34,686 bases of DNA from positions 1 through 34,686 of the forward strand of contig PMBS01000071.1 of the NCBI GenBank assembly GCA_003153015.1, given 5' to 3'. The DNA is from Myxococcales bacterium (lineage in GTDB: Bacteria; Myxococcota_A; Polyangia; Fen-1088). Position numbers and translations under genes: made by a program. Under the pieces are notes generated by a model. That model saw nothing but the letters and a program-made list of their open reading frames with translations, was not told the origin of the DNA and searched no databases. This document shows, piece after piece, positions 7,697-34,385 of this stretch. Each line of letters begins with the position of its first letter. Within the stretch, counting starts at the first letter, position 1.

Positions 7697-9331
7697 CTAT
7701 TTCACGAAGCCTTGCAGGCCAACGTTGAGTCCCTTCATCGCCTGCGCGACCAGATTGGCAATTTGGGTGGCGCCAGGTTCGTGGAAGTGTGTGCCGTCGA
7801 CGAACATCGCGCTCTTGGCGCTGCTGGACAATGTGCCGTAGTAGGTGAGCGCGAGGCTGGTCAGGTCGATATATGCTACATTCTGGGCCTCGGCCAAAGT
7901 GATCATGGTCTGATCGAATCCGTTGAAGCCGTGGTTGGCGGCGCTCGCGCCTGAGCGTGCAACTGGGGTGATGAGGACCGGAGTGACGCTCTTGGCCTTC
8001 GCGTCGGTGAGGTACTTGGTCAGGTTCGTCTGGTAGGTGGCGGCGGAGTCGGACTTCATGTCGTTGTGGCCGAACTGGACGAAGAGAAAATCGCCCTGCT
8101 TCATGGCCGCTTTCACCGGAGGATAGAAACCTGAATAGAAAGAGCCCGCAGTTTCGCCCGAGTCCGCGTAGTTGGCCACGGCGATGCCTGGACCCAGGAA
8201 TTGCGAAAGCTCCTGACCCCAGCCGGAAACGTCTGTCCCGTCTGGGGCGAACGGATTGTAGGTTGCGGGATCCCAGTCGCAAACCGTCGAGTCGCCGGCA
8301 ATGTAGATGGTCGGTATGCTGGCGGCCGCAAACCCAACCCCGTGCAACGCCGGGGCGGTTCCGTCGAAGGACAGGTTCAGGATGTTTCCCGGGGCACTGT
8401 AGCCGTCGTGTTTTTCTGCCCTGACGTTCACCGCGAAGGTGTAGCGGAAATAGGCCCCGGCTGTCGTGTTGGTCGGCTGCAGAACGATGCGGCGGGTTTC
8501 CGCCCGCACGCGCGTCGTGGCCGCGGCGGTTGCGCTGCCCAATTCCACGGTCACGGTATAGTTGCCGTTGTTTGCGCTGAATGCGCAGTCGATCGGGTTC
8601 GTCCCAGTGCACTTGGCAAGCAACGTCGGATCGAGCGGCACCTCGCCGCTGGAGCCTCCCGCGGCGCCTCCGGTGGAGCCACCGCTGTTTCCGGTGCCGC
8701 CGGCGCCGCCCCCGCCGCTGCCGGTGCGCCCGAGATCCGGAGCCCCACCCGCGCGGCCATCGGGGATGATGGTCGCGTCAGTGGGCCCATCAGGTGGGCG
8801 AACCGCGTCGGACCCCATGGCGTCCTTTGCGGCGCTGGTGCCACCGAGTCCTGCGTCTGGGGGAAGTTGGCCGCCGGCGCCAGTGCCACCGCTTGCCGTG
8901 GTCGCACCGCCCGTGCTGCCGCCTGCGCTGGTCGATCCGCCCGAGGCAGCAATCCCGCCTGTGCCCGCCGAGCCGCCGGTGCTGGGGCTGCCTCCTGTGA
9001 CGGTCGAGCCTCCGGTGCGCAGGCTGCCGCCTGCCGCGGTCAAACCGCCGCTGGCAGGAGTGCCGCCTGCAACGGACCTGCCGCCTGTGGCGGTCAGGCC
9101 ACCACTAGATATGCCACCGGCCCCGGTCGTACCGCCGGCTACTGCGCTGGTGGAGGACTGTCCACCGTTGCCGCCAGCAACCGGCGATCCTGAACTTGAG
9201 TCCGGCGAACTACATCCGCTGGGCCAGGCCACCACCCAAACTGCCATCGCAAACCATGAAATCGCCGCGGTGAAAAGCGCGCGTCGCCTTGGGCCACAGG
9301 ATGAAGGGGGGGGTACTTCTCTTTTCTTCAT
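7697..9331 (-). CDS. GDSL/SGNH lipoprotein, rhamnogalacturonan-acetylesterase-like, with GG-repeat linker
   Basis: Lipobox-like WPSGC, GG-repeat linker, then YIAGDSTVCDW (block I), GWGQELSQFL...VANYADSGETAGSF, LFVQFGHNDMK (block III), MFVDGTHFHEPGATQIA (block V). Confidence 0.85.
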   Translation of the reverse strand: MKKREVPPPSSCGPRRRALFTAAISWFAMAVWVVAWPSGCSSPDSSSGSPVAGGNGGQSSTSAVAGGTTGAGGISSGGLTATGGRSVAGGTPASGGLTAAGGSLRTGGSTVTGGSPSTGGSAGTGGIAASGGSTSAGGSTGGATTASGGTGAGGQLPPDAGLGGTSAAKDAMGSDAVRPPDGPTDATIIPDGRAGGAPDLGRTGSGGGGAGGTGNSGGSTGGAAGGSSGEVPLDPTLLAKCTGTNPIDCAFSANNGNYTVTVELGSATAAATTRVRAETRRIVLQPTNTTAGAYFRYTFAVNVRAEKHDGYSAPGNILNLSFDGTAPALHGVGFAAASIPTIYIAGDSTVCDWDPATYNPFAPDGTDVSGWGQELSQFLGPGIAVANYADSGETAGSFYSGFYPPVKAAMKQGDFLFVQFGHNDMKSDSAATYQTNLTKYLTDAKAKSVTPVLITPVARSGASAANHGFNGFDQTMITLAEAQNVAYIDLTSLALTYYGTLSSSAKSAMFVDGTHFHEPGATQIANLVAQAMKGLNVGLQGFVK

Positions 9332-13448: not shown

Positions 13449-14237
13449 TCAACGCCGTCGGCGACGCGCCAGCATCACGATCGCGCCGAACAGGCCCGCC
13501 AGCAGCCAGGGACCGAAGGTCTTGGCCGAAAACCAGCCGCCCACCGCGCACCCGCTCGAGTCGCTCTGGTCGTTGCCGCCTGTCCCGCCCGGGCCTCCCG
13601 CGCCTGCAGTGCCGCCGGTTGCCGAGACCACTTCCTGTCCGGCTGTCCCGCCCACCGCAGGCGCTGTGGTGCTCGCACTCTGTGTCCCGCCTGCCGGTGG
13701 AGCCGTGGTGGCCTGCCCGGTTGTTCCGCCCGCCGCTGTGGCTCCGCCCGCCGCTGTGGCTCCGCCCGCCGCTGTGCTCCCGCCCGTCGCTGTGCTCCCG
13801 CCCGTCGCGGTTGTCCCGCCCGCCGCCGTGCTCCCGCCCGCTGCTGTGGTGCCACCCGCTGCTATGGTGCCGCCCGCCGCCGTGCTCCCGCCGAGCACGC
13901 TCTTCCCGCCTGTCCCGACAGAACCTCCCTGCGCGCTCGCCCCGCCCTGTCCGCTGGCCCCGCCTGCGCCTACAAGCCCGCCGTCGCCACCTACACAGCG
14001 GAGGCAAGCGTACTGCATGGTTGGCGGCGAGGCAGAGGCATCTCGGTTCCAGTTCGCATAGTCGAGCCTCGAGCAGGTGCTCGCGACGCAAACTCCCGCT
14101 CCGTTGCGACACGAAACGCCTGCTGAGGCCGCCTGGCTGCAATCCGCGACATCCGGCGGAATCACATCGGCACGAGCCACGCTGGCGTAGGCTGCCAACG
14201 ATGCCAACGCTGAAATAAGTAGTCCCGCTGTTTTCAT
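13449..14237 (-). CDS. Secreted GG-repeat protein with MYXO-CTERM-like sorting signal
   Basis: Signal peptide MKTAGLLISALASLAAYASVARA; Cys-rich N-domain; (GGSTAA/T)n repeat; C-terminus SSGCAVGGWFSAKTFGPWLLAGLFGAIVMLARRRRR (Cys motif + TM + Arg cluster). Confidence 0.82.
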   Translation of the reverse strand: MKTAGLLISALASLAAYASVARADVIPPDVADCSQAASAGVSCRNGAGVCVASTCSRLDYANWNRDASASPPTMQYACLRCVGGDGGLVGAGGASGQGGASAQGGSVGTGGKSVLGGSTAAGGTIAAGGTTAAGGSTAAGGTTATGGSTATGGSTAAGGATAAGGATAAGGTTGQATTAPPAGGTQSASTTAPAVGGTAGQEVVSATGGTAGAGGPGGTGGNDQSDSSGCAVGGWFSAKTFGPWLLAGLFGAIVMLARRRRR

Positions 14238-14462: not shown

Positions 14463-16094
14463 ATGGGGCATTTCCGTCGCCTCATGTTCGCGGTGACCGC
14501 CCTGGCCTCTCTGGGCCTGGGATGCAGTTCATCAGACAACGCTGGGCCGCCACACGTAGGTGGCAGCCAAGCCACCGGTGGGTCAGGTGGAAACAGCGTA
14601 GGTACCGGCGGAACGGTTGCCTCAGGCGGAACGGTTGCCTCAGGCGGAACGGTTGCCTCAGGCGGCGTGGTTACTCAGGGAGGCTCGGTCACCAATGGTG
14701 GCTCAGTTTCCACAGGCGGCACGACAACCGCGGGCGGCTCGGTTTCCACGGGTGGCTCTGTCGCCACGGGCGGCTCGGTTTCCACGGGTGGCTCTGTCGC
14801 CACGGGCGGCTCGGTTTCCGCGGGCGGCTCTGTCGCCACGGGCGGCTCGGTTTCCACGGGCGGCTCTGTCGCTACGGGCGGCTCTGTCCCCGCCGGTGGC
14901 TCGACCGCTCGAGGCGGCACCACAACCGCGGGCGGCTCTGTCGCCACGGGTGGCTCGGTTTCCACGGGCGGCTCTGTCGCCACGGGCGGCTCTGTCGTCG
15001 CCGGCGGCTCGACCGCTCGGGGCGGCACGACAATCACAGGAGGGTCAGTCTCCACAGGCGGCTCCACCACTCCTCCCCCCACCGGGGGCACTGTCACGAC
15101 GGATGGGGGCTCTCCGCCGGCCAATGGCGGTCCAACTCCAGACACCGCGACACGGGCCAAGTGCACCAACGACTCATCCGGCATTGCCTGCCATTTTGGT
15201 GGCAACCCGGGCAACTACGATGTCGCCTTCTACCTCGGTGGCACCGCCGCCGGAAAGACCACCGTAACGGCCGAAACCTCGCGCGGGATGCTGGCCGAAG
15301 TCGACACCGCCGCAGGCCAAAAAGTCCTCTATTCCATGACGGTCAACGTCCGCCAGCCCGAGGGAGAACCTACCCAGGCCACGGCTCCGGCTGGAACCCC
15401 TGGATTGGACATGTACTTCAGAGGACCGGCGCCTCTGCTGGATTCCATCGCCTACGCAACAGCCGCCAACCCAACTGTCCTTTACATCGCGGGCGATTCA
15501 ACCGTTTGCGACCAGTCCGGCGCCGCGTTTGGCGGGTGGGGCCAGGAGGTGCCACAGTTCTTCGGCTATGGCCTCTCCGTGGCGAATTACGCCGATTCTG
15601 GCGAGAGTTCTGGGAGTTTTCTCAATAGCTCCGGGCTAATGGGCGCCGTCACCTCTCGCTGGAAGGCCAATGACTACCTATTCGTTCAAATGGGCCACAA
15701 CGACAAGACGACCACGGCGACGGCTTTCCAAACCAACATGACTTCCTATGTGACTCAGGCAAAGGCAAAGGGCGTTATCCCGGTGCTCGTTACGCCCATT
15801 GCTCGCGCGCAATTCAGTGGCAACACAGTCTCGCCCCAGCACATCAACAGCACTGGCGCCGATCTTCCTGCCATCATCCGACAGATCGGCACAGATCAGA
15901 ATGTTCCGGTCATCGATCTGACAGCCCTGACCGTGGCCTGGCTCAACCAGCTTGGCCCCAATGGCTGGCAGTCCTACTTTGTGTCAGGCCAAGTCACTCA
16001 CACCACCCATTCCGGAGCGAAGGTGATTGCTGGCTTTGTCGCCGACGCGATTCGCACCCTCAACATCTCCCCGCTGAAGAATTTCCTTCGCTAG
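14463..16094 (+). CDS. GDSL/SGNH lipoprotein, rhamnogalacturonan-acetylesterase-like (second paralogue), long GG-repeat linker
   Basis: MGHFRRLMFAVTALASLGLGCSSSDN (lipobox LGLGC); (GGSVST/GGSVAT)n; YIAGDSTVCDQ, VANYADSGESSGSF, LFVQMGHNDK, THTTHSGAKVIAGFVADAI. Longer ORF start at 14322 unlikely. Confidence 0.85.
   Translation: MGHFRRLMFAVTALASLGLGCSSSDNAGPPHVGGSQATGGSGGNSVGTGGTVASGGTVASGGTVASGGVVTQGGSVTNGGSVSTGGTTTAGGSVSTGGSVATGGSVSTGGSVATGGSVSAGGSVATGGSVSTGGSVATGGSVPAGGSTARGGTTTAGGSVATGGSVSTGGSVATGGSVVAGGSTARGGTTITGGSVSTGGSTTPPPTGGTVTTDGGSPPANGGPTPDTATRAKCTNDSSGIACHFGGNPGNYDVAFYLGGTAAGKTTVTAETSRGMLAEVDTAAGQKVLYSMTVNVRQPEGEPTQATAPAGTPGLDMYFRGPAPLLDSIAYATAANPTVLYIAGDSTVCDQSGAAFGGWGQEVPQFFGYGLSVANYADSGESSGSFLNSSGLMGAVTSRWKANDYLFVQMGHNDKTTTATAFQTNMTSYVTQAKAKGVIPVLVTPIARAQFSGNTVSPQHINSTGADLPAIIRQIGTDQNVPVIDLTALTVAWLNQLGPNGWQSYFVSGQVTHTTHSGAKVIAGFVADAIRTLNISPLKNFLR
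14600..15075 (+). repeat. 18-nt tandem repeat encoding (GGSVST)/(GGSVAT)n
   Basis: Three identical ggcggaacggttgcctca units, then alternating ggctcggtttccacggg / ggctctgtcgccacggg units. Confidence 0.92.
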
Positions 16095-18627: not shown

Positions 18628-20322
18628 ATGCAAAAGCAAAGACGGGATTTTCTCAAGATAACCGCCGCAGGCGCAGCGGGATTGGCGCTTACCAGAGCGG
18701 ATAGGGCGTTTGCGGCCTGGCCCGGCACCGGAACCATGGCGGTAAATCCCAACATCAGCAACATGCGGGTGGTGGGGTGCTACGACACGAAGATGATGAA
18801 GAGCACTCCGGCGATGTCTTTCGCTGCAGAAAACACGGCGGTCGATTCCGCCCGAGTGCAGGCCAACATGGATGCCATGGCCATGCAACTGGCCAACCAA
18901 ACCACGGCGGATGCGGCATGGAAGGCCATTTTCAGGACCGGCAAATCATCATGGGCGGCCACGAAAGTAGCCATCAAGGTAAACACCCTTGAACCGAAAA
19001 ACATGGCCCACATCGCGATATTGCAGAAATTCTGCACCATCCTTGCGGGCTATGGCGTCCCGCCCGCCAACATAATCATCTACGATGGGCAATCTGCCTA
19101 CAGCGGAACCTCAAACTACGCTTCCTATATCAGCCTGACCGATACCACCAAGATCCAGGCGGTTCTCAGTAATCTGAATTCCGCACTGGGGGGCACAGTG
19201 AGCGCTCCCATCCCTGGCGGAAGTTCTGGGACTTGCACCGCAGACATTGCCAATGGAACGATCGACATTCTCATCAATCTCGCGAACAACAAGGGACACG
19301 ACTTGATGGGCGGGGCCACGCTCTGCATGAAGAACCACTTTGGCACCTTTGCCCCCAAGCACGACATCAACTATCTGTTCAACATCAACAAGAGCGATGC
19401 CATCCTAGGGGGAGCTCCTGTGCGGCAGCAATTGTGTTTTGTCGATTCCTTGTTTACCAACAAGACACAAAACACAGGAACGCCGGAGCTCATGCCGTGC
19501 TATCTGACCATGGGCGTGTTTGCTCCTGCAGTTGACTACCTGACCATCAAGAAAGTCCGCGAAGAGGCTCTGGGGTTGACCCATGTTGCGGCTACCATCA
19601 ACTCCTACCTCACGAGTTTCGGTTACACGACGACCGACCCGGTGTGGGTTCTCGTGTCCCCGGCTGGCAGCGGGACCGGTGCCGACGGAGGCGCGGGCGG
19701 CGCCGGCGGGACCAGCGGGTCCGGAGGCGCAGGCAGCGGCGGCACCAGCGCGGCCGGAGGCGCAGGCAGCGGCGGGACCAGCGCTTCCGGAGGCGCAGGC
19801 AGCGGCGGCACCAGTGGGTCCGGAGGCGCCCGTAGCGGTGGGACCAGCGCGGCAGGAGGCGCGGGCAGCGGCGGGAGCAGCGCGGCCGGGGGCGCGGGCA
19901 GCGGTGGAACGAGCGCGGCCGGAGGCGCGGGCAACACCGGCGGGACGAGCGGGTCGGGGGGCGCGCGCAGCGGCGGGACGAGTGGGTCCGGAGGCGCGGC
20001 CAGCGGCGGCGCGACTGCTGCGGGCGGTACGACCGGCAGCGGTGGCACTACGTCAGGCGGTGCAAGCGGAACTGGCGGCGTGGCGACAAGCTCTGCGTCG
20101 GCATCAGGGGGCTCGGCGACCACAGGCGGGACCCGCGCCGGAGGCGGGACGGGCGGTAGCGGCGGAAGCAAGGGCTCGACGGCTGGCGGCGGGAAACAAG
20201 AGGGCGGTTGTGATGTCGCCGGGGCCGACCGCAGGGCCACGCGCTGGGGTGCGATGCTGGCGCTCGGCGCAGTGGTGACGGAGAAGCTTCGGCGCCTGGT
20301 CAGCGGCGATCGATCGTCGTGA
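18628..20322 (+). CDS. Tat-exported DUF362-domain protein with GG-repeat linker and MYXO-CTERM-like tail (copy 1)
   Basis: MQKQRRDFLKITAAGAAGLALTRADRAFA; TKVAIKVNTLEP, NIIIYDGQSAY, GHDLMGGATLCMKNHFGTF (DUF362-like); tail GGCDVAGADRRATRWGAMLALGAVVTEKLRRLVSGDRSS. Confidence 0.85.
   Translation: MQKQRRDFLKITAAGAAGLALTRADRAFAAWPGTGTMAVNPNISNMRVVGCYDTKMMKSTPAMSFAAENTAVDSARVQANMDAMAMQLANQTTADAAWKAIFRTGKSSWAATKVAIKVNTLEPKNMAHIAILQKFCTILAGYGVPPANIIIYDGQSAYSGTSNYASYISLTDTTKIQAVLSNLNSALGGTVSAPIPGGSSGTCTADIANGTIDILINLANNKGHDLMGGATLCMKNHFGTFAPKHDINYLFNINKSDAILGGAPVRQQLCFVDSLFTNKTQNTGTPELMPCYLTMGVFAPAVDYLTIKKVREEALGLTHVAATINSYLTSFGYTTTDPVWVLVSPAGSGTGADGGAGGAGGTSGSGGAGSGGTSAAGGAGSGGTSASGGAGSGGTSGSGGARSGGTSAAGGAGSGGSSAAGGAGSGGTSAAGGAGNTGGTSGSGGARSGGTSGSGGAASGGATAAGGTTGSGGTTSGGASGTGGVATSSASASGGSATTGGTRAGGGTGGSGGSKGSTAGGGKQEGGCDVAGADRRATRWGAMLALGAVVTEKLRRLVSGDRSS
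19690..20000 (+). repeat. 33-nt tandem repeat encoding (GGAGSGGTSAA)n in DUF362 copy 1
   Basis: Repeated ggaggcgcaggcagcggcgggaccagcgcg units. Confidence 0.88.
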
Positions 20323-20632
20323 TCCGGTCGTCGACACTGGCGGCCAATCAGCGGGAACTCACCGACCTGCCAGCGACAAGCACCAGCCTCATGCGTGCCT
20401 GCGTGCTTTGAGTTGGGGAAAGAAGATGAGCCGTCTGGGCCGGTTCCCCTCACTGTAGCAAGAAAGGTTTCCAGCAGAAACTGGGCACATGTCACACTCA
20501 GTCATTTCGGTCAGCCGAATGGTCACTCACTGGGAAGTTCCAGCCGTGGCTTGATGAATCAATGACGCGTGGCGCTGCGAAGGAATGCTTCACTAGTTGC
20601 TCTACTCACTTCCTAAGAAGCAGGAGTTCTTC

Positions 20633-22198
20633 ATGGAAAAGCAAAGACGGGACTTTCTCAAGATAACCGCCGCGGGCGCCGCGGGATTGGCGCTTAGCAA
20701 AGCGGACAGGGCGTTTGCGGCATGGCCCGGCACGGGCACAATGCCGGTAAATTCTGCCATCGACAACATGCGGGTCGTGGCGTGCTACGACCCGCAAATG
20801 ATGCAGCCGTTCACTCAAGCAGTCTACGCTACCGAGCAAAAGTTGGTTGATTCCTGCCAAGTGCAGGCGAACATGGATGCCATGGCCATGCAACTGGCCC
20901 AAGTAGCCACGGCGGATGCGGCATGGAAAGCCATCTTCAGGTCAGGCAAGGCGTGGCCCTCCACGAAGGTCGCCATAAAGATAAATGGCATTGAACCTAG
21001 GGTCATGGCCAGCGTGGCGGTCATAGAGAAATTCTGCAACGTCTTTACCGGTTTTGGCGTGTTGCCTACCAACATATTCATTTACGACGGGAGCTCCCTG
21101 GGTGCCGCCGGAATCCCAACCCTAGCCTCCTATTTCAGCACGACCGATGCCACCAAGGTCCCGGGGGTTGTTGGCAACAACTCCATATTGGGGGGCACGA
21201 CTAACGCTGCCATTCCGGGGGGAAGCTCTGCGGCTTGCACCGCGAACATCGCCAATGGCACGATCGACATTCTCGTCAATATTGCGAATAACAAGGGACA
21301 CAACCTAGCGTGGACCGGCTACGCCACGCTGTGCATGAAAAACCACTTTGGCACGTTTCCCCCGACCCACGACCTCAACTATATGTTCAACATCAATAAG
21401 AGCGATGCCCTTCTCGGGGGAACTTTCGTGCGGCAGCAATTGTGTTTTGTCGATTCCCTCCTGGCAATCTCTGCGCAAAAGAACACAGGAAGCCCGGATA
21501 AACAGCCGAACTATTTGATCATGGGCGTGTTCGGTCCCGCGGTTGACTACCTTACGTGCAAGAAGGTCCGCGAAGCGATCATGGGGTCCACCCATACTGC
21601 GGCCACGATTAACTCCTACATCACGACTTTCGGCTACGCGACAACCGACCCGGTGTGGGTCATGGTGCCTGCTGCCACTGGCGCAACCTGCACCGGCGGG
21701 GGCACGGGCGGCACCGGCGGTGGCACGGGCGGCGCCGGGGGTTCGGGGGCCAGCGGCGGGACCAGCGCTTCCGGAGGCGCGCGCAGCGGCGGAACCACAG
21801 CCTCCGGAGGATCGGGCAGTGGCGGAACCAGCGCGTCCGGAGGCGCGGCCAGCGGCGGAAACACCGCGTCCGGAGGCGTAGCCAGCGGCGGGACGACCGC
21901 TGCGGGCGGTACGCCCGGCAGCGGTGGCACTACCTCAGGCGGCACTGGGGGAACCGGCGGTGCGGCGACAAGTGTTGCGTCGGCATCAGGGGGCTCGGCG
22001 ACAACCGGCGGAACCGGCGCCGGAGCCGGGACGGGCGGCAGCAGCGGAAACACGGTTACTGGCGAGAATTCGGGGAGCGGTTGTGATGTCGTCGGGGTCG
22101 ACCGCAGGGCCACCCGCTGGGGTGCGATGCTGGCGTTCGGCGCAGTGGTGGCAGAGAAGCTTCGGCGGCTGCTCAGCGACGACGATCGATCGTCGTGA
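20633..22198 (+). CDS. Tat-exported DUF362-domain protein with GG-repeat linker and MYXO-CTERM-like tail (copy 2)
   Basis: MEKQRRDFLKITAAGAAGLALSKADRAFA; near-collinear with copy 1 throughout; tail SGCDVVGVDRRATRWGAMLAFGAVVAEKLRRLLSDDDRSS. Confidence 0.85.
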   Translation: MEKQRRDFLKITAAGAAGLALSKADRAFAAWPGTGTMPVNSAIDNMRVVACYDPQMMQPFTQAVYATEQKLVDSCQVQANMDAMAMQLAQVATADAAWKAIFRSGKAWPSTKVAIKINGIEPRVMASVAVIEKFCNVFTGFGVLPTNIFIYDGSSLGAAGIPTLASYFSTTDATKVPGVVGNNSILGGTTNAAIPGGSSAACTANIANGTIDILVNIANNKGHNLAWTGYATLCMKNHFGTFPPTHDLNYMFNINKSDALLGGTFVRQQLCFVDSLLAISAQKNTGSPDKQPNYLIMGVFGPAVDYLTCKKVREAIMGSTHTAATINSYITTFGYATTDPVWVMVPAATGATCTGGGTGGTGGGTGGAGGSGASGGTSASGGARSGGTTASGGSGSGGTSASGGAASGGNTASGGVASGGTTAAGGTPGSGGTTSGGTGGTGGAATSVASASGGSATTGGTGAGAGTGGSSGNTVTGENSGSGCDVVGVDRRATRWGAMLAFGAVVAEKLRRLLSDDDRSS

Positions 22199-25893: not shown

Positions 25894-27609
25894 ATGTCAA
25901 GGTGTCTCGTCCCTAGAATTCGACCCGCTTCTGCCTGTTGGTTTTCCTTGGTCTTCGCAGCCGCGCTGCCTGGATGCGGCAGCGAATCAGTATCCAAGCC
26001 TGCTGATGCCGCGGTCCCTAACGTGGGCCTAGACGCCGCCCAACCCGACTTGGCGGTCGCCGAGGATACCGCCAACCCCAACGTGGGCCTGGACGCCGCC
26101 CAACCCGACACCACAGTTGACGTGCCGGTTTTCGGCGATACCGCGATAGATGCAGGGTTGGACGCACCCCAAACGGACGCGGTGATCGACACAGTGGTGG
26201 CTGTCGACGGCGCTAGCCCCAGTGCTGGTTCAGACGGCGCCCAACCCGACATCGTGGCCGACACAGCGACAGCCGTTGATGTCGGCCCGGTGGCGGACGG
26301 TGCAGTTGGCGATGGCGGTCCTTCGATTGCCTGTTCGTCGTTGGTGAATCCACTGTACGTCATGACCGGAGACACTCAGGTGCCGGTCCTGAAAACCCTG
26401 GGAAAGGCCCTCCGGCAAAGTGCCAATCCCATAACCCTGGTTTGGTATGCGACTGGATCCTGCACCATCATCGACGCTCTTTACCACGGCACCCCGCTGA
26501 CCCAGATCCCGTCCTATATTCCCGGCGACGCCGCATGGGATCCCAGCACGGGAGCGGTGCCGAGCTGTGCGCTGGAAATTGGCGGGCGCAATGTGGACAT
26601 CGGAATCCCGATCGTATTTCCCGCAGCCTGCTCAAGCGATACACCGCCGGCCGATCTCGGCGCTTTCAAGGGTCCGGTGCAGTCGATGCTCTTCGTGGTT
26701 CCGCATGCTGCTTCGTCCGGGGCCATCAGTTCGGAACAGGCGCGTCTGGTCTTTGGCACGGGCGCCACGGCCAACATTGCGCCTTGGACGGATGAGAACT
26801 TCTATTTCATTCGCACGCCCACCAAGGGCGTGGAAGTCAGCCTCGGTGCGTTGATCGGCGTACCACCGGCGCAGTGGCACGGGCAACAGATCGCTGCATC
26901 AAACGATGTGGCAACCAAGGTGGCCGCGTCGACACAGCCCGAAAAGACTATTGGCATTCTTGGCAGTGAAACGTTCGACAGCGCAACCAACCGGACCAAC
27001 CTGAAGGCGCTGGCTTTCCAAGCCGTGAGTCAGACCAACGGCTATCTCCCTGATTCCACCGCAACCGCCTTTGACAAGCGGAGTCTTCGTGAAGGGCACT
27101 ATGTCGCCTGGGCGCATGTGTTCTACTTGACCAAGGTGTCGTCCACCGATGGAGGAGCACCTGACGGAGGTGTGCCGGAGCCGGTCAATGCAAACGCCAA
27201 GCTGTTCATTGACATTCTCACCAACACGGCCAATCCCGGCATTCCGTCTGGATTGGATCCAGTCGCCCTGGTTGCGCAGAAGGGAATTGTTCCTTTGTGC
27301 GCCATGGCGGTGACGCGTTCGACCGAGGGTGGCCCTCTCTCACTCTTTGCGCCCCCTGATCCTTGCGGGTGCTACTACGAAAGCAAGCTGAGCACCGGAA
27401 CAGTTCCTGCGTCCTGTGTGACCTGTACCGCAAGCGCGTCCTGCACCGGCGGCACCACCTGTCGGCATGGCTACTGCGAAGCCGACGATGGCCGCACCTC
27501 TTTGAGCGACTGCAGCCCTCTTGCAGGCGCAGCCACCTACGCCCAAATCATCAATAATACCTGCACGACTGGGACGCGGTTCCAGGCCGATCACATTCCT
27601 ACTCCGTGA
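25894..27609 (+). CDS. Lipoprotein: Asp-rich repeat spacer + PBP/PstS-like domain + C-terminal Cys-rich module
   Basis: SD aggagg upstream; lipobox LPGC; PNVGLDAAQPD repeats; LYVMTGDTQVPVLKTLGKALRQSANPITLVWYATGSCTIIDALYHG...; CVTCTASASCTGGTTCRHGYCEADD. Confidence 0.78.
   Translation: MSRCLVPRIRPASACWFSLVFAAALPGCGSESVSKPADAAVPNVGLDAAQPDLAVAEDTANPNVGLDAAQPDTTVDVPVFGDTAIDAGLDAPQTDAVIDTVVAVDGASPSAGSDGAQPDIVADTATAVDVGPVADGAVGDGGPSIACSSLVNPLYVMTGDTQVPVLKTLGKALRQSANPITLVWYATGSCTIIDALYHGTPLTQIPSYIPGDAAWDPSTGAVPSCALEIGGRNVDIGIPIVFPAACSSDTPPADLGAFKGPVQSMLFVVPHAASSGAISSEQARLVFGTGATANIAPWTDENFYFIRTPTKGVEVSLGALIGVPPAQWHGQQIAASNDVATKVAASTQPEKTIGILGSETFDSATNRTNLKALAFQAVSQTNGYLPDSTATAFDKRSLREGHYVAWAHVFYLTKVSSTDGGAPDGGVPEPVNANAKLFIDILTNTANPGIPSGLDPVALVAQKGIVPLCAMAVTRSTEGGPLSLFAPPDPCGCYYESKLSTGTVPASCVTCTASASCTGGTTCRHGYCEADDGRTSLSDCSPLAGAATYAQIINNTCTTGTRFQADHIPTP
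26020..26109 (+). repeat. 60-bp-spaced direct repeat (aacgtgggcctRgacgccgcccaacccgac) encoding NVGLDAAQPD
   Basis: Copies start at 26020 and 26080, differing at one position. Confidence 0.9.
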
Positions 27610-33080: not shown

Positions 33081-34385
33081 ATGACAAGAAAGGCGAGCCT
33101 AGGGACTATGGTACTTCTCGTAGGTGCCATGATCGCCGGGGCATTGTCCAGCGGGTGCGGGACCAACAAATCGGGAGGGCTCACCGGAACCGGCGGCAGC
33201 GCGGGAGCAGGCGGGAGCACGCAAGGGACCGGCGGGTCCACGGCATCTGGAGGTAGCAGCGCAAGTGGGGGCATCACCGGAACAGGTTCGGGGGGAATTG
33301 CCTCCGGTGGAATTGGCTCCGGCGGAATCGCATCCGGTGGAATAGGCGGAAAGTCCTCCGGCGGAACAGGTGGCGGCGGAATCGCTTCTGGCGGAATCGC
33401 CTCCGGTGGGATCAGCTTGGGCGGAGTTGGCTCCGGTGGAATCGCTGTTGGCGGAATCGCATCCGGCGGAATTGGCTCTGGCGGAGTCGCTTCCGGTGGA
33501 ATCGGCTCCGGCGGAATCGCATCCGGCGGTACCCGCGGCACCGGTGGAACGGGCTCAGGCGTCTGCCCGGCTGGGCAGACGTGGTGTGAAGGGTGCACGC
33601 CTGGGACGGGTTCCTGCGCGGCCACCTGCCCCAGTTTGGTTTGCCCAGGACCGGACGCGGGCTGTACCGGCAGCACCTGTTCGCAGGACGCACGGGCGAA
33701 CGATGAACCCTTGGGAAGCTGCAGCCAGGTCACAACTCAGACGGAGTGTGACAGCCGCAACGACTGCCACTCGGTTTTCGTGGATCCTGGAACTTGTGGG
33801 TGTGCTGGCGCAGGCTGCTGCGCGCACTTCAATCGCTGCGCCGACGGCGCCAACGCCAACTGCAGCGGGCCGGCTTTGTGCAAGATGGCGCAGCCCTTCT
33901 GCGAGGCGCCCTATGTCTTGTCGTACACCGGCAACTGCTACGAGGGCTGCGTCCTGCAAAGCAAGTGCGCTCCTGCCACCTGTCCGCAAACGCCGCCAGC
34001 GAACGCCTCAGGCTGCGGCAGTGGCAGCGTCACGTGTTTCTACGAAGACTGCACCAGCACGGGGCGCACGCTGGCAGTCTGTGCCGGCGGAACCTGGACG
34101 GTCCAAACCGCAGCCTGCGGGCCCGGCGGTCCCATGAGCTGCTCGGCGAACGGGACCACGTCGACGTGCACGGCTGGAAAGATGTGCGTCATAACGACCA
34201 GCGTCGGCGGCGCCTACTTAGTCCGTGCCGACTGTCGCCCCACTTGCGGCCCGGGCCTGGTTACTCCCCAATGCATCGACAACGCGGGCAACAATTGTTT
34301 CGCGACCTACTCCCTTACCTCAGGGGTGACAGTCAATTGCAGCAACTATTCCTCCTGCGGCTCGGGACAAGGCGGCTGCGCTTAA
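33081..34385 (+). CDS. Lipoprotein with (GGIAS/GGIGS)n repeat and Cys-rich C-terminal domain
   Basis: MTRKASLGTMVLLVGAMIAGALSSGCGTNKSGG...; 15-nt repeats; C-terminus with many Cys (CPAGQTWCEGCTPGTGSCAATCPSLVC...CGCAGAGCCAHFNRCADG...). Confidence 0.82.
   Translation: MTRKASLGTMVLLVGAMIAGALSSGCGTNKSGGLTGTGGSAGAGGSTQGTGGSTASGGSSASGGITGTGSGGIASGGIGSGGIASGGIGGKSSGGTGGGGIASGGIASGGISLGGVGSGGIAVGGIASGGIGSGGVASGGIGSGGIASGGTRGTGGTGSGVCPAGQTWCEGCTPGTGSCAATCPSLVCPGPDAGCTGSTCSQDARANDEPLGSCSQVTTQTECDSRNDCHSVFVDPGTCGCAGAGCCAHFNRCADGANANCSGPALCKMAQPFCEAPYVLSYTGNCYEGCVLQSKCAPATCPQTPPANASGCGSGSVTCFYEDCTSTGRTLAVCAGGTWTVQTAACGPGGPMSCSANGTTSTCTAGKMCVITTSVGGAYLVRADCRPTCGPGLVTPQCIDNAGNNCFATYSLTSGVTVNCSNYSSCGSGQGGCA
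33285..33530 (+). repeat. 15-nt tandem repeat encoding (GGIAS/GGIGS)n
   Basis: Repeated ggcggaatcgcatcc / ggtggaattggctcc units. Confidence 0.9.

Follow-up and report, generated by a model that had tools for sequence, protein, structure and literature searches.

Glycine-glycine repeat tracts as probable tethers between exported domains and envelope anchors in an uncultured Myxococcota bacterium

Introduction

What role does a glycine-rich repeat play when it recurs in exported proteins with different functional domains? The question is raised by a stretch of DNA, here called the window, which is one entire contig (C114; 34,686 nucleotides) of the MAG of an uncultured soil bacterium of the phylum Myxococcota (5.84 Mb, 87% complete). 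An initial annotation of the window described GG-x(3-4) tracts in seven proteins, A to G, and read them as a recurrent, shuffling- or slippage-prone spacer that might form polyglycine-II-like rods. We examined these proteins, a quarter of the MAG and related genomes, and we propose that the tracts are most probably flexible tethers.

Results

Seven window proteins carry GG tracts

All seven proteins are translated as annotated, and each contains a GG-x(3-4) tract. The longest GG runs in A to G are, in order, 12, 16, 16, 29, 25, 19 and 24, compared with means of 2.0-3.0 (maximum 7) when the residues of the same ORFs are permuted. GG pairs within the tracts are spaced 3-8 residues apart, mostly 5-6, and TRF reports periods of 18, 36 and 108 nt in D, 18 and 54 nt in C, 33 nt in E, 33 and 66 nt in F, and 15, 30 and 60 nt in G.

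Protein D (14463-16094, forward strand) is a predicted lipoprotein with a GDSL esterase domain that resembles rhamnogalacturonan acetylesterases. The domain matches Pfam Lipase_GDSL_2 (6.4e-10) and, in the PDB, 2o14 yxiM (9.7e-18) and the RG acetylesterase 1deo (1.6e-5). Its predicted lipobox Cys (14523-14525, forward; SLGLG-C-SSSD), called like all lipoboxes here by a simple pattern filter rather than SignalP, is followed by a tract of 29 GG with an 18-nt unit and a 108-nt higher-order repeat (14559-15062, forward). Protein B (7697-9331, reverse) is likewise an exported GDSL esterase (Pfam, 1.9e-10), with an atypical lipobox (WPSGC) and a 16-GG tract (8870-9136, reverse). Proteins A (3-749, reverse; LMAAG-C-GAGP) and G (33081-34385, forward; ALSSG-C-GTN) are predicted lipoproteins. 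In A, the tract (423-626, reverse) leads into an Asp/Ala-rich segment and then a Cys-rich domain that is truncated at the contig end; in G, a tract of 24 GG with a 15-nt unit (33174-33548, forward) accompanies a Cys-rich domain. No Pfam family matched A, C or G, and C was also without an NCBIfam match.

The remaining three proteins have the tract near the C terminus. Protein C (13449-14237, reverse) consists of a signal peptide, a Cys-containing segment, a 16-GG tract (13725-13991, reverse) and the C-tail SGCAVGG..LLAGLFGAIVMLARRRRR. Protein E (18628-20322, forward) has a Tat signal, a DUF362 domain, a tract with 25 GG in its run and a 33-nt unit (19687-20079, forward), and a GCDVAG..TRWGAMLALGAVVTEKLRRL tail; F (20633-22198, forward) is its paralogue, with 19 GG (21695-21961, forward). 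The tracts of C, E and F thus precede a tail of a Cys, a hydrophobic stretch and Arg/Lys. The proposal that the tracts lie between anchor or signal and functional domain therefore stands for all seven proteins as far as separation is concerned, but in these three the tract does not follow an N-terminal anchor. Nor are the seven proteins all unrelated, as had been supposed: because B and D are both GDSL proteins and E and F both DUF362 proteins, they represent five unrelated kinds.

Two side observations concern the same proteins and their neighbours. The predicted DUF362 structure of E (18628-20322) gives a weak Foldseek match to LarA-type nickel-pincer racemases (E 9e-3). A further predicted lipoprotein in the window (25894-27609, forward) has Asp/Ala/Pro-rich imperfect repeats (NVGLDAAQPD) as a spacer and no GG tract.

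GG tracts adjoin predicted anchors across the genome

The initial annotation had suggested a census of GG-repeat proteins and their fused domains. We took contigs 1-121 (at most 20 kb each) and the window, together 1.45 Mb or 25% of the MAG, and counted the ORFs whose GG runs reach eight or more. This sample holds 81 such ORFs, or ~56/Mb; a third-order Markov genome holds none. The window proteins are therefore a minor part of a set that spans the genome and, by extrapolation from 25% of the MAG, would total about 300 or more genes. The tracts have a median length of 113 residues and occupy 1.7% of the sampled bases.

Two architectures account for 74 of the ORFs: 64 have a predicted lipoprotein Cys, then the tract, then a domain, and 10 have a signal, a domain, the tract and a MYXO-CTERM-like tail. 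In every one of the 74, the tract is on the anchor side. Fragments and poly-G contig ends make up most of the other seven, which also include one MYXO-CTERM-like protein that the filter missed and one unrelated Gly-rich ORF.

The domains joined to the tracts are of many kinds, with a large share of plant-cell-wall enzymes. Matches to 50 Pfam families come from 65 domain parts, which bears out the idea of a spacer recurring in many unrelated exported proteins. The families include GDSL esterases (nine), rhamnogalacturonan lyase family 11 (RGL11; four), GH5 and RCC1 (three each), and GH88, BD-FAE, alpha-fucosidase and GH26 (two each), as well as GH59, GH3, GH31, GH12 and others. Carbohydrate-active domains, counted by hand among the 25 families listed, occur in ~28/65 tract proteins versus 2/24 lipoproteins without a tract (Fisher p 0.002), the latter being a small control set picked by a stricter lipobox filter.

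The tracts are uncharged and predicted to be disordered

Glycine makes up ~42% of tract residues. The residues between GG pairs are T (30%), S (22%) and A (20%), and D and E together account for less than 1%. Gly autocorrelation is strongest at a lag of 6 residues and falls to 0.60 of expectation at a lag of 3, and Gly-x-x runs hold 12% of tract residues (6% with the x residues shuffled). AlphaFold places almost no structure in the tracts of D and E, with pLDDT of ~26-48 in D and 29-36 in E compared with mostly 80-98 in the domains, although such low values may also reflect a shallow alignment. Disorder is thus the predicted state of the tracts, and we consider a rod much less likely than a flexible tether.

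We also considered codon choice: GGA and GGG are few at the first Gly of each GG. Isolated GG pairs in the rest of the genome show largely the same bias, which is therefore not a main feature of the tracts.

Predicted anchors are lipoprotein cysteines or MYXO-CTERM-like tails

The simple lipobox filter passes A, D and G and 64 of the 81 census ORFs; a stricter filter passes 16 of these 64 and, in the same 1.45 Mb, 24 lipoproteins that lack a tract. The +2 residue of the tract lipoproteins is S, G, T, A or N in 56/64 and Asp in 1/64. MYXO-CTERM tails are tripartite, with an invariant Cys motif, a transmembrane helix and an Arg-rich end. Inspection of C, E and F reveals the corresponding Cys, hydrophobic stretch and Arg/Lys at the C terminus, and the AlphaFold model of E has a helix at 540-558 in this region. 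The model TIGR03901 gave no match to the three tails at E<=1. The MAG has 15 TIGR03901 loci over the curated cut-off, and one tail on contig C301 is recognised by TIGR03901 (23.2 bits) and also resembles the E-type tail (E 1.4e-7). The GC.VAG-type tail of the DUF362 proteins, which occurs nine times in its own genome, is a MYXO-CTERM-like variant that the model misses.

The MAG also encodes one MrtX homologue (NF040593, E 8.3e-42; its 145 bits fall below the curated cut-off of 180) and a GspD homologue (C74:1547-3395) split over two frames, through either a genuine frameshift or faulty assembly. Elsewhere, MYXO-CTERM proteins and pullulanase-type lipoproteins are delivered to the surface via the T2SS (PMC11980579). 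By analogy, we infer surface display of the tract proteins.

The DUF362 proteins merit a separate description. In the Tat-exported members (window 18628-22198 and L031-L044), the C-tail GC.VAG..R.ATRWGAMLAFGAVVAEKLRRLVS is strongly conserved, and proteins with this tail occur as tandem copies in several genomes. The tract is missing from DUF362 homologues of other phyla, found in records of Chitinivibrionales and Calditrichaeota. One from Chitinivibrionales (L043:1897-3336) has, by eye, an apparent FlgD/T9SS-type C-terminal domain in place of the Myxococcota tract and tail.

Repeat units turn over within genes

Units of 18 nt are more alike within genes (identity 0.63) than between genes (0.53), and identity within a gene declines with distance: it is 0.66 for adjacent units (lag 1) and 0.61 at lag 14. 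These patterns indicate that units probably arise by local tandem duplication within each gene. Copy number also appears to change quickly: GDSL proteins whose domains are 97% identical carry 26 GG in one case and 15 in the other, and in a looser count E has 32 GG against 25 in L031, a relative at 91% identity; the corresponding figures are 21 for B and 22 for L175, likewise a relative at 91% identity. All these lengths are read from short-read MAGs, in which repeats may be mis-assembled. Together with the unit identities, they support the slippage-prone spacer of the initial annotation, and invariant repeats restricted to one protein family, the finding named there as its refutation, are not what we see.

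Is the anchor-and-tract part also exchanged between genes? Two clear gene pairs among the 74 proteins switch C-terminal domain inside the tract. Adjacent genes on contig C97 (L152) share 82-90% identity across their initial ~240 nt and split within the tract into GDSL and RGL11. For a pair on contig C44 (L099), identity of 85-95% already begins ~140 bp upstream of the start and continues to the tract, interrupted by one gap and a single weaker stretch. An all-against-all BLAST of N-modules, run without SEG, returned hundreds of low-complexity hits, of which a few strong pairs were kept and these two verified in the DNA. Separately, L099 (C44) and L115 (C60) include three lipoproteins with a common Cys-rich N-terminal module (55-76% protein identity) and differing C-terminal parts. 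A shared tract cassette was tried as an explanation and rejected: the longest exact match between tracts of unrelated genes averages 11.4 nt, compared with 11.6-11.7 nt after shuffling of synonymous codons. The suggested shuffling is thus weakly supported, by the two domain switches and with no sign of a circulating cassette.

The expansion is patchy within the family

A six-GG, 18-nt-period pattern has 1,233 matches in the MAG, the top count of 284 sampled Myxococcota genomes, and at least one match in 194 of them. An eight-GG pattern has 203-439 matches per genome of the same genus and 1-368 in other family members. The expansion is therefore patchy within the family, with counts from 1 to 439 per genome. 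The closest named relatives of protein E are in Myxococcales 'fen' MAGs. Some families, such as f32, reach high counts through another repeat, the period-3 (GGX)n, and two genomes of other Myxococcota families (G108 and G247) have many such tracts, which would fit a polyglycine-II register.

GG-poor genomes of the same family (G269/G294) often have an Asp/Ala/Ser/Gly-rich linker ahead of MYXO-CTERM, and some of their proteins have no obvious linker. Because these relatives often fill the position with other low-complexity linkers, the linker slot is more conserved than the GG repeat itself.

Discussion

Repeat stalks of other compositions are familiar from surface proteins. Gram-positive LPXTG proteins carry Ser/Thr- or Pro-rich stalks of variable length between the anchor and a binding or catalytic domain. 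Their anchor and envelope differ from those considered here, and the LPXTG stalk spans a thick wall. A close parallel is found in Saccharophagus, in which more than one in four carbohydrate depolymerases carry polyserine linkers and lipobox carbohydrases are also common (PMC2386152). Like the GG tracts, the polyserine linkers of Saccharophagus, Cellvibrio and Teredinibacter are low-complexity flexible spacers in many plant-polymer depolymerases of one genome; a flexible segment (pLDDT ~30) and CAZyme-type domains (~28/65) are found in our set as well. However, polyserine linkers are of poly-Ser composition and lie between functional modules, for instance a CBM and a catalytic domain, whereas the GG tracts have a GG-x(3-4) rather than a poly-Ser composition, are uncharged, lie beside a membrane anchor at either protein end, and are more numerous. 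In position, they also resemble the disordered stretch between the surface-exposed domain and the MYXO-CTERM anchor of TraA in Myxococcus, for which a GG repeat is unmentioned (PMC11980579). Unlike that stretch, they occur in N-terminal lipoproteins too and, by extrapolation, in hundreds of genes. The GG tracts thus resemble known polyserine linkers, and their scale and constant place beside the anchor are unusual. A search of the open literature, with most subscription papers outside its reach, found no description of the GG tracts of Myxococcota, which is weak evidence of novelty.

Could the tracts be stiff instead? The initial annotation's polyglycine-II rods would be ordered three-fold helices of polyglycine-II or PPII type, single or bundled, that project the enzymes stiffly. 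The high glycine content, the third x of period-6 units (71% A/S/G, which would be in register with the second Gly) and the period-3 tracts of G108 and G247 fit this reading. However, the known PPII bundle, that of the likewise Gly-rich collembolan antifreeze proteins, is built from strict G-X-X tripeptides (PMC10235112), a register that the lag-3 depletion and the scarcity of Gly-x-x runs show to be absent from the GG tracts. Periods of 5, 5.5 and 6 residues also shift the three-residue register, and almost no structure is predicted, so we consider rods highly improbable. A different view is that the tract exists to be cut. Gly-Gly bonds are known substrates of M23 peptidases of the LasA/lysostaphin type, and such glycyl-glycine endopeptidases could cleave the tract and shed the enzyme. 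TraA is partly released to the outside of the cell, and cleavage of MYXO-CTERM proteins by other proteases, in the disordered region adjacent to the anchor, has been proposed (PMC11980579). A membrane anchor would nevertheless be pointless were all enzyme shed, and we regard a release region as the least probable of the readings considered here.

The origin of the tracts invites two further readings. Anchor and tract might form a mobile module that recombines via its repeats to gain new enzymes, as the C97 and C44 pairs, with their change of domain after a closely similar 5' part, would suggest. Yet these are the only clear cases in 74 proteins, exact sharing between unrelated tracts is no higher than in shuffled sequence, and units are closer within genes than between them; such a cassette seems unlikely. 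Alternatively, the tracts could be selfish products of slippage, tolerated at disordered positions and with a length that brings no benefit. Rapid shifts in tract length, the patchiness of the expansion in the family and the other linkers that relatives have in the same slot are what neutral expansion would produce. It accounts less readily for dozens of independently evolving tracts with the same period and composition, for their presence beside anchors only and for the divergence of synonymous codons between units, and we give it a modest chance.

We therefore favour, with fair confidence, the reading of the tracts as disordered, uncharged tethers that hold an exported domain away from its envelope anchor, with loosely constrained length and local repeat turnover. 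This tether function is inferred from composition, predicted disorder and position. A tether of Gly, Thr, Ser and Ala would separate the exported domain, often a plant-cell-wall enzyme, from a lipid or transmembrane anchor. The anchor would be of one of two kinds, a lipoprotein Cys at the N terminus or a MYXO-CTERM-like tail at the C terminus, with the tract adjoining whichever serves. The outer surface would most likely be reached via the type II secretion system, as for pullulanase-type lipoproteins and MYXO-CTERM proteins elsewhere. Units may be gained and lost through local tandem duplication and deletion in each gene, selection may preserve only composition and a minimum length, and an occasional crossover in the tract may couple an anchor module with a new domain. 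A bolder version, which we hold to be doubtful, would make the self-expanding GG spacer a standard junction, in which slippage sets enzyme reach and tract crossovers recruit catalytic domains, diversifying a cellulosome-free degradation of plant polymers at the surface.

What would such tethers mean for these bacteria? If the reading is correct, one linker type would have spread to hundreds of genes without cassette copying. The natural length variants of a near-identical enzyme would offer a testable system for the effect of tether length on the hydrolysis of insoluble polymers. Finally, some uncultured Myxococcota would display on the cell much of their plant-cell-wall-degrading repertoire via a single, cheap and length-variable type of tether.
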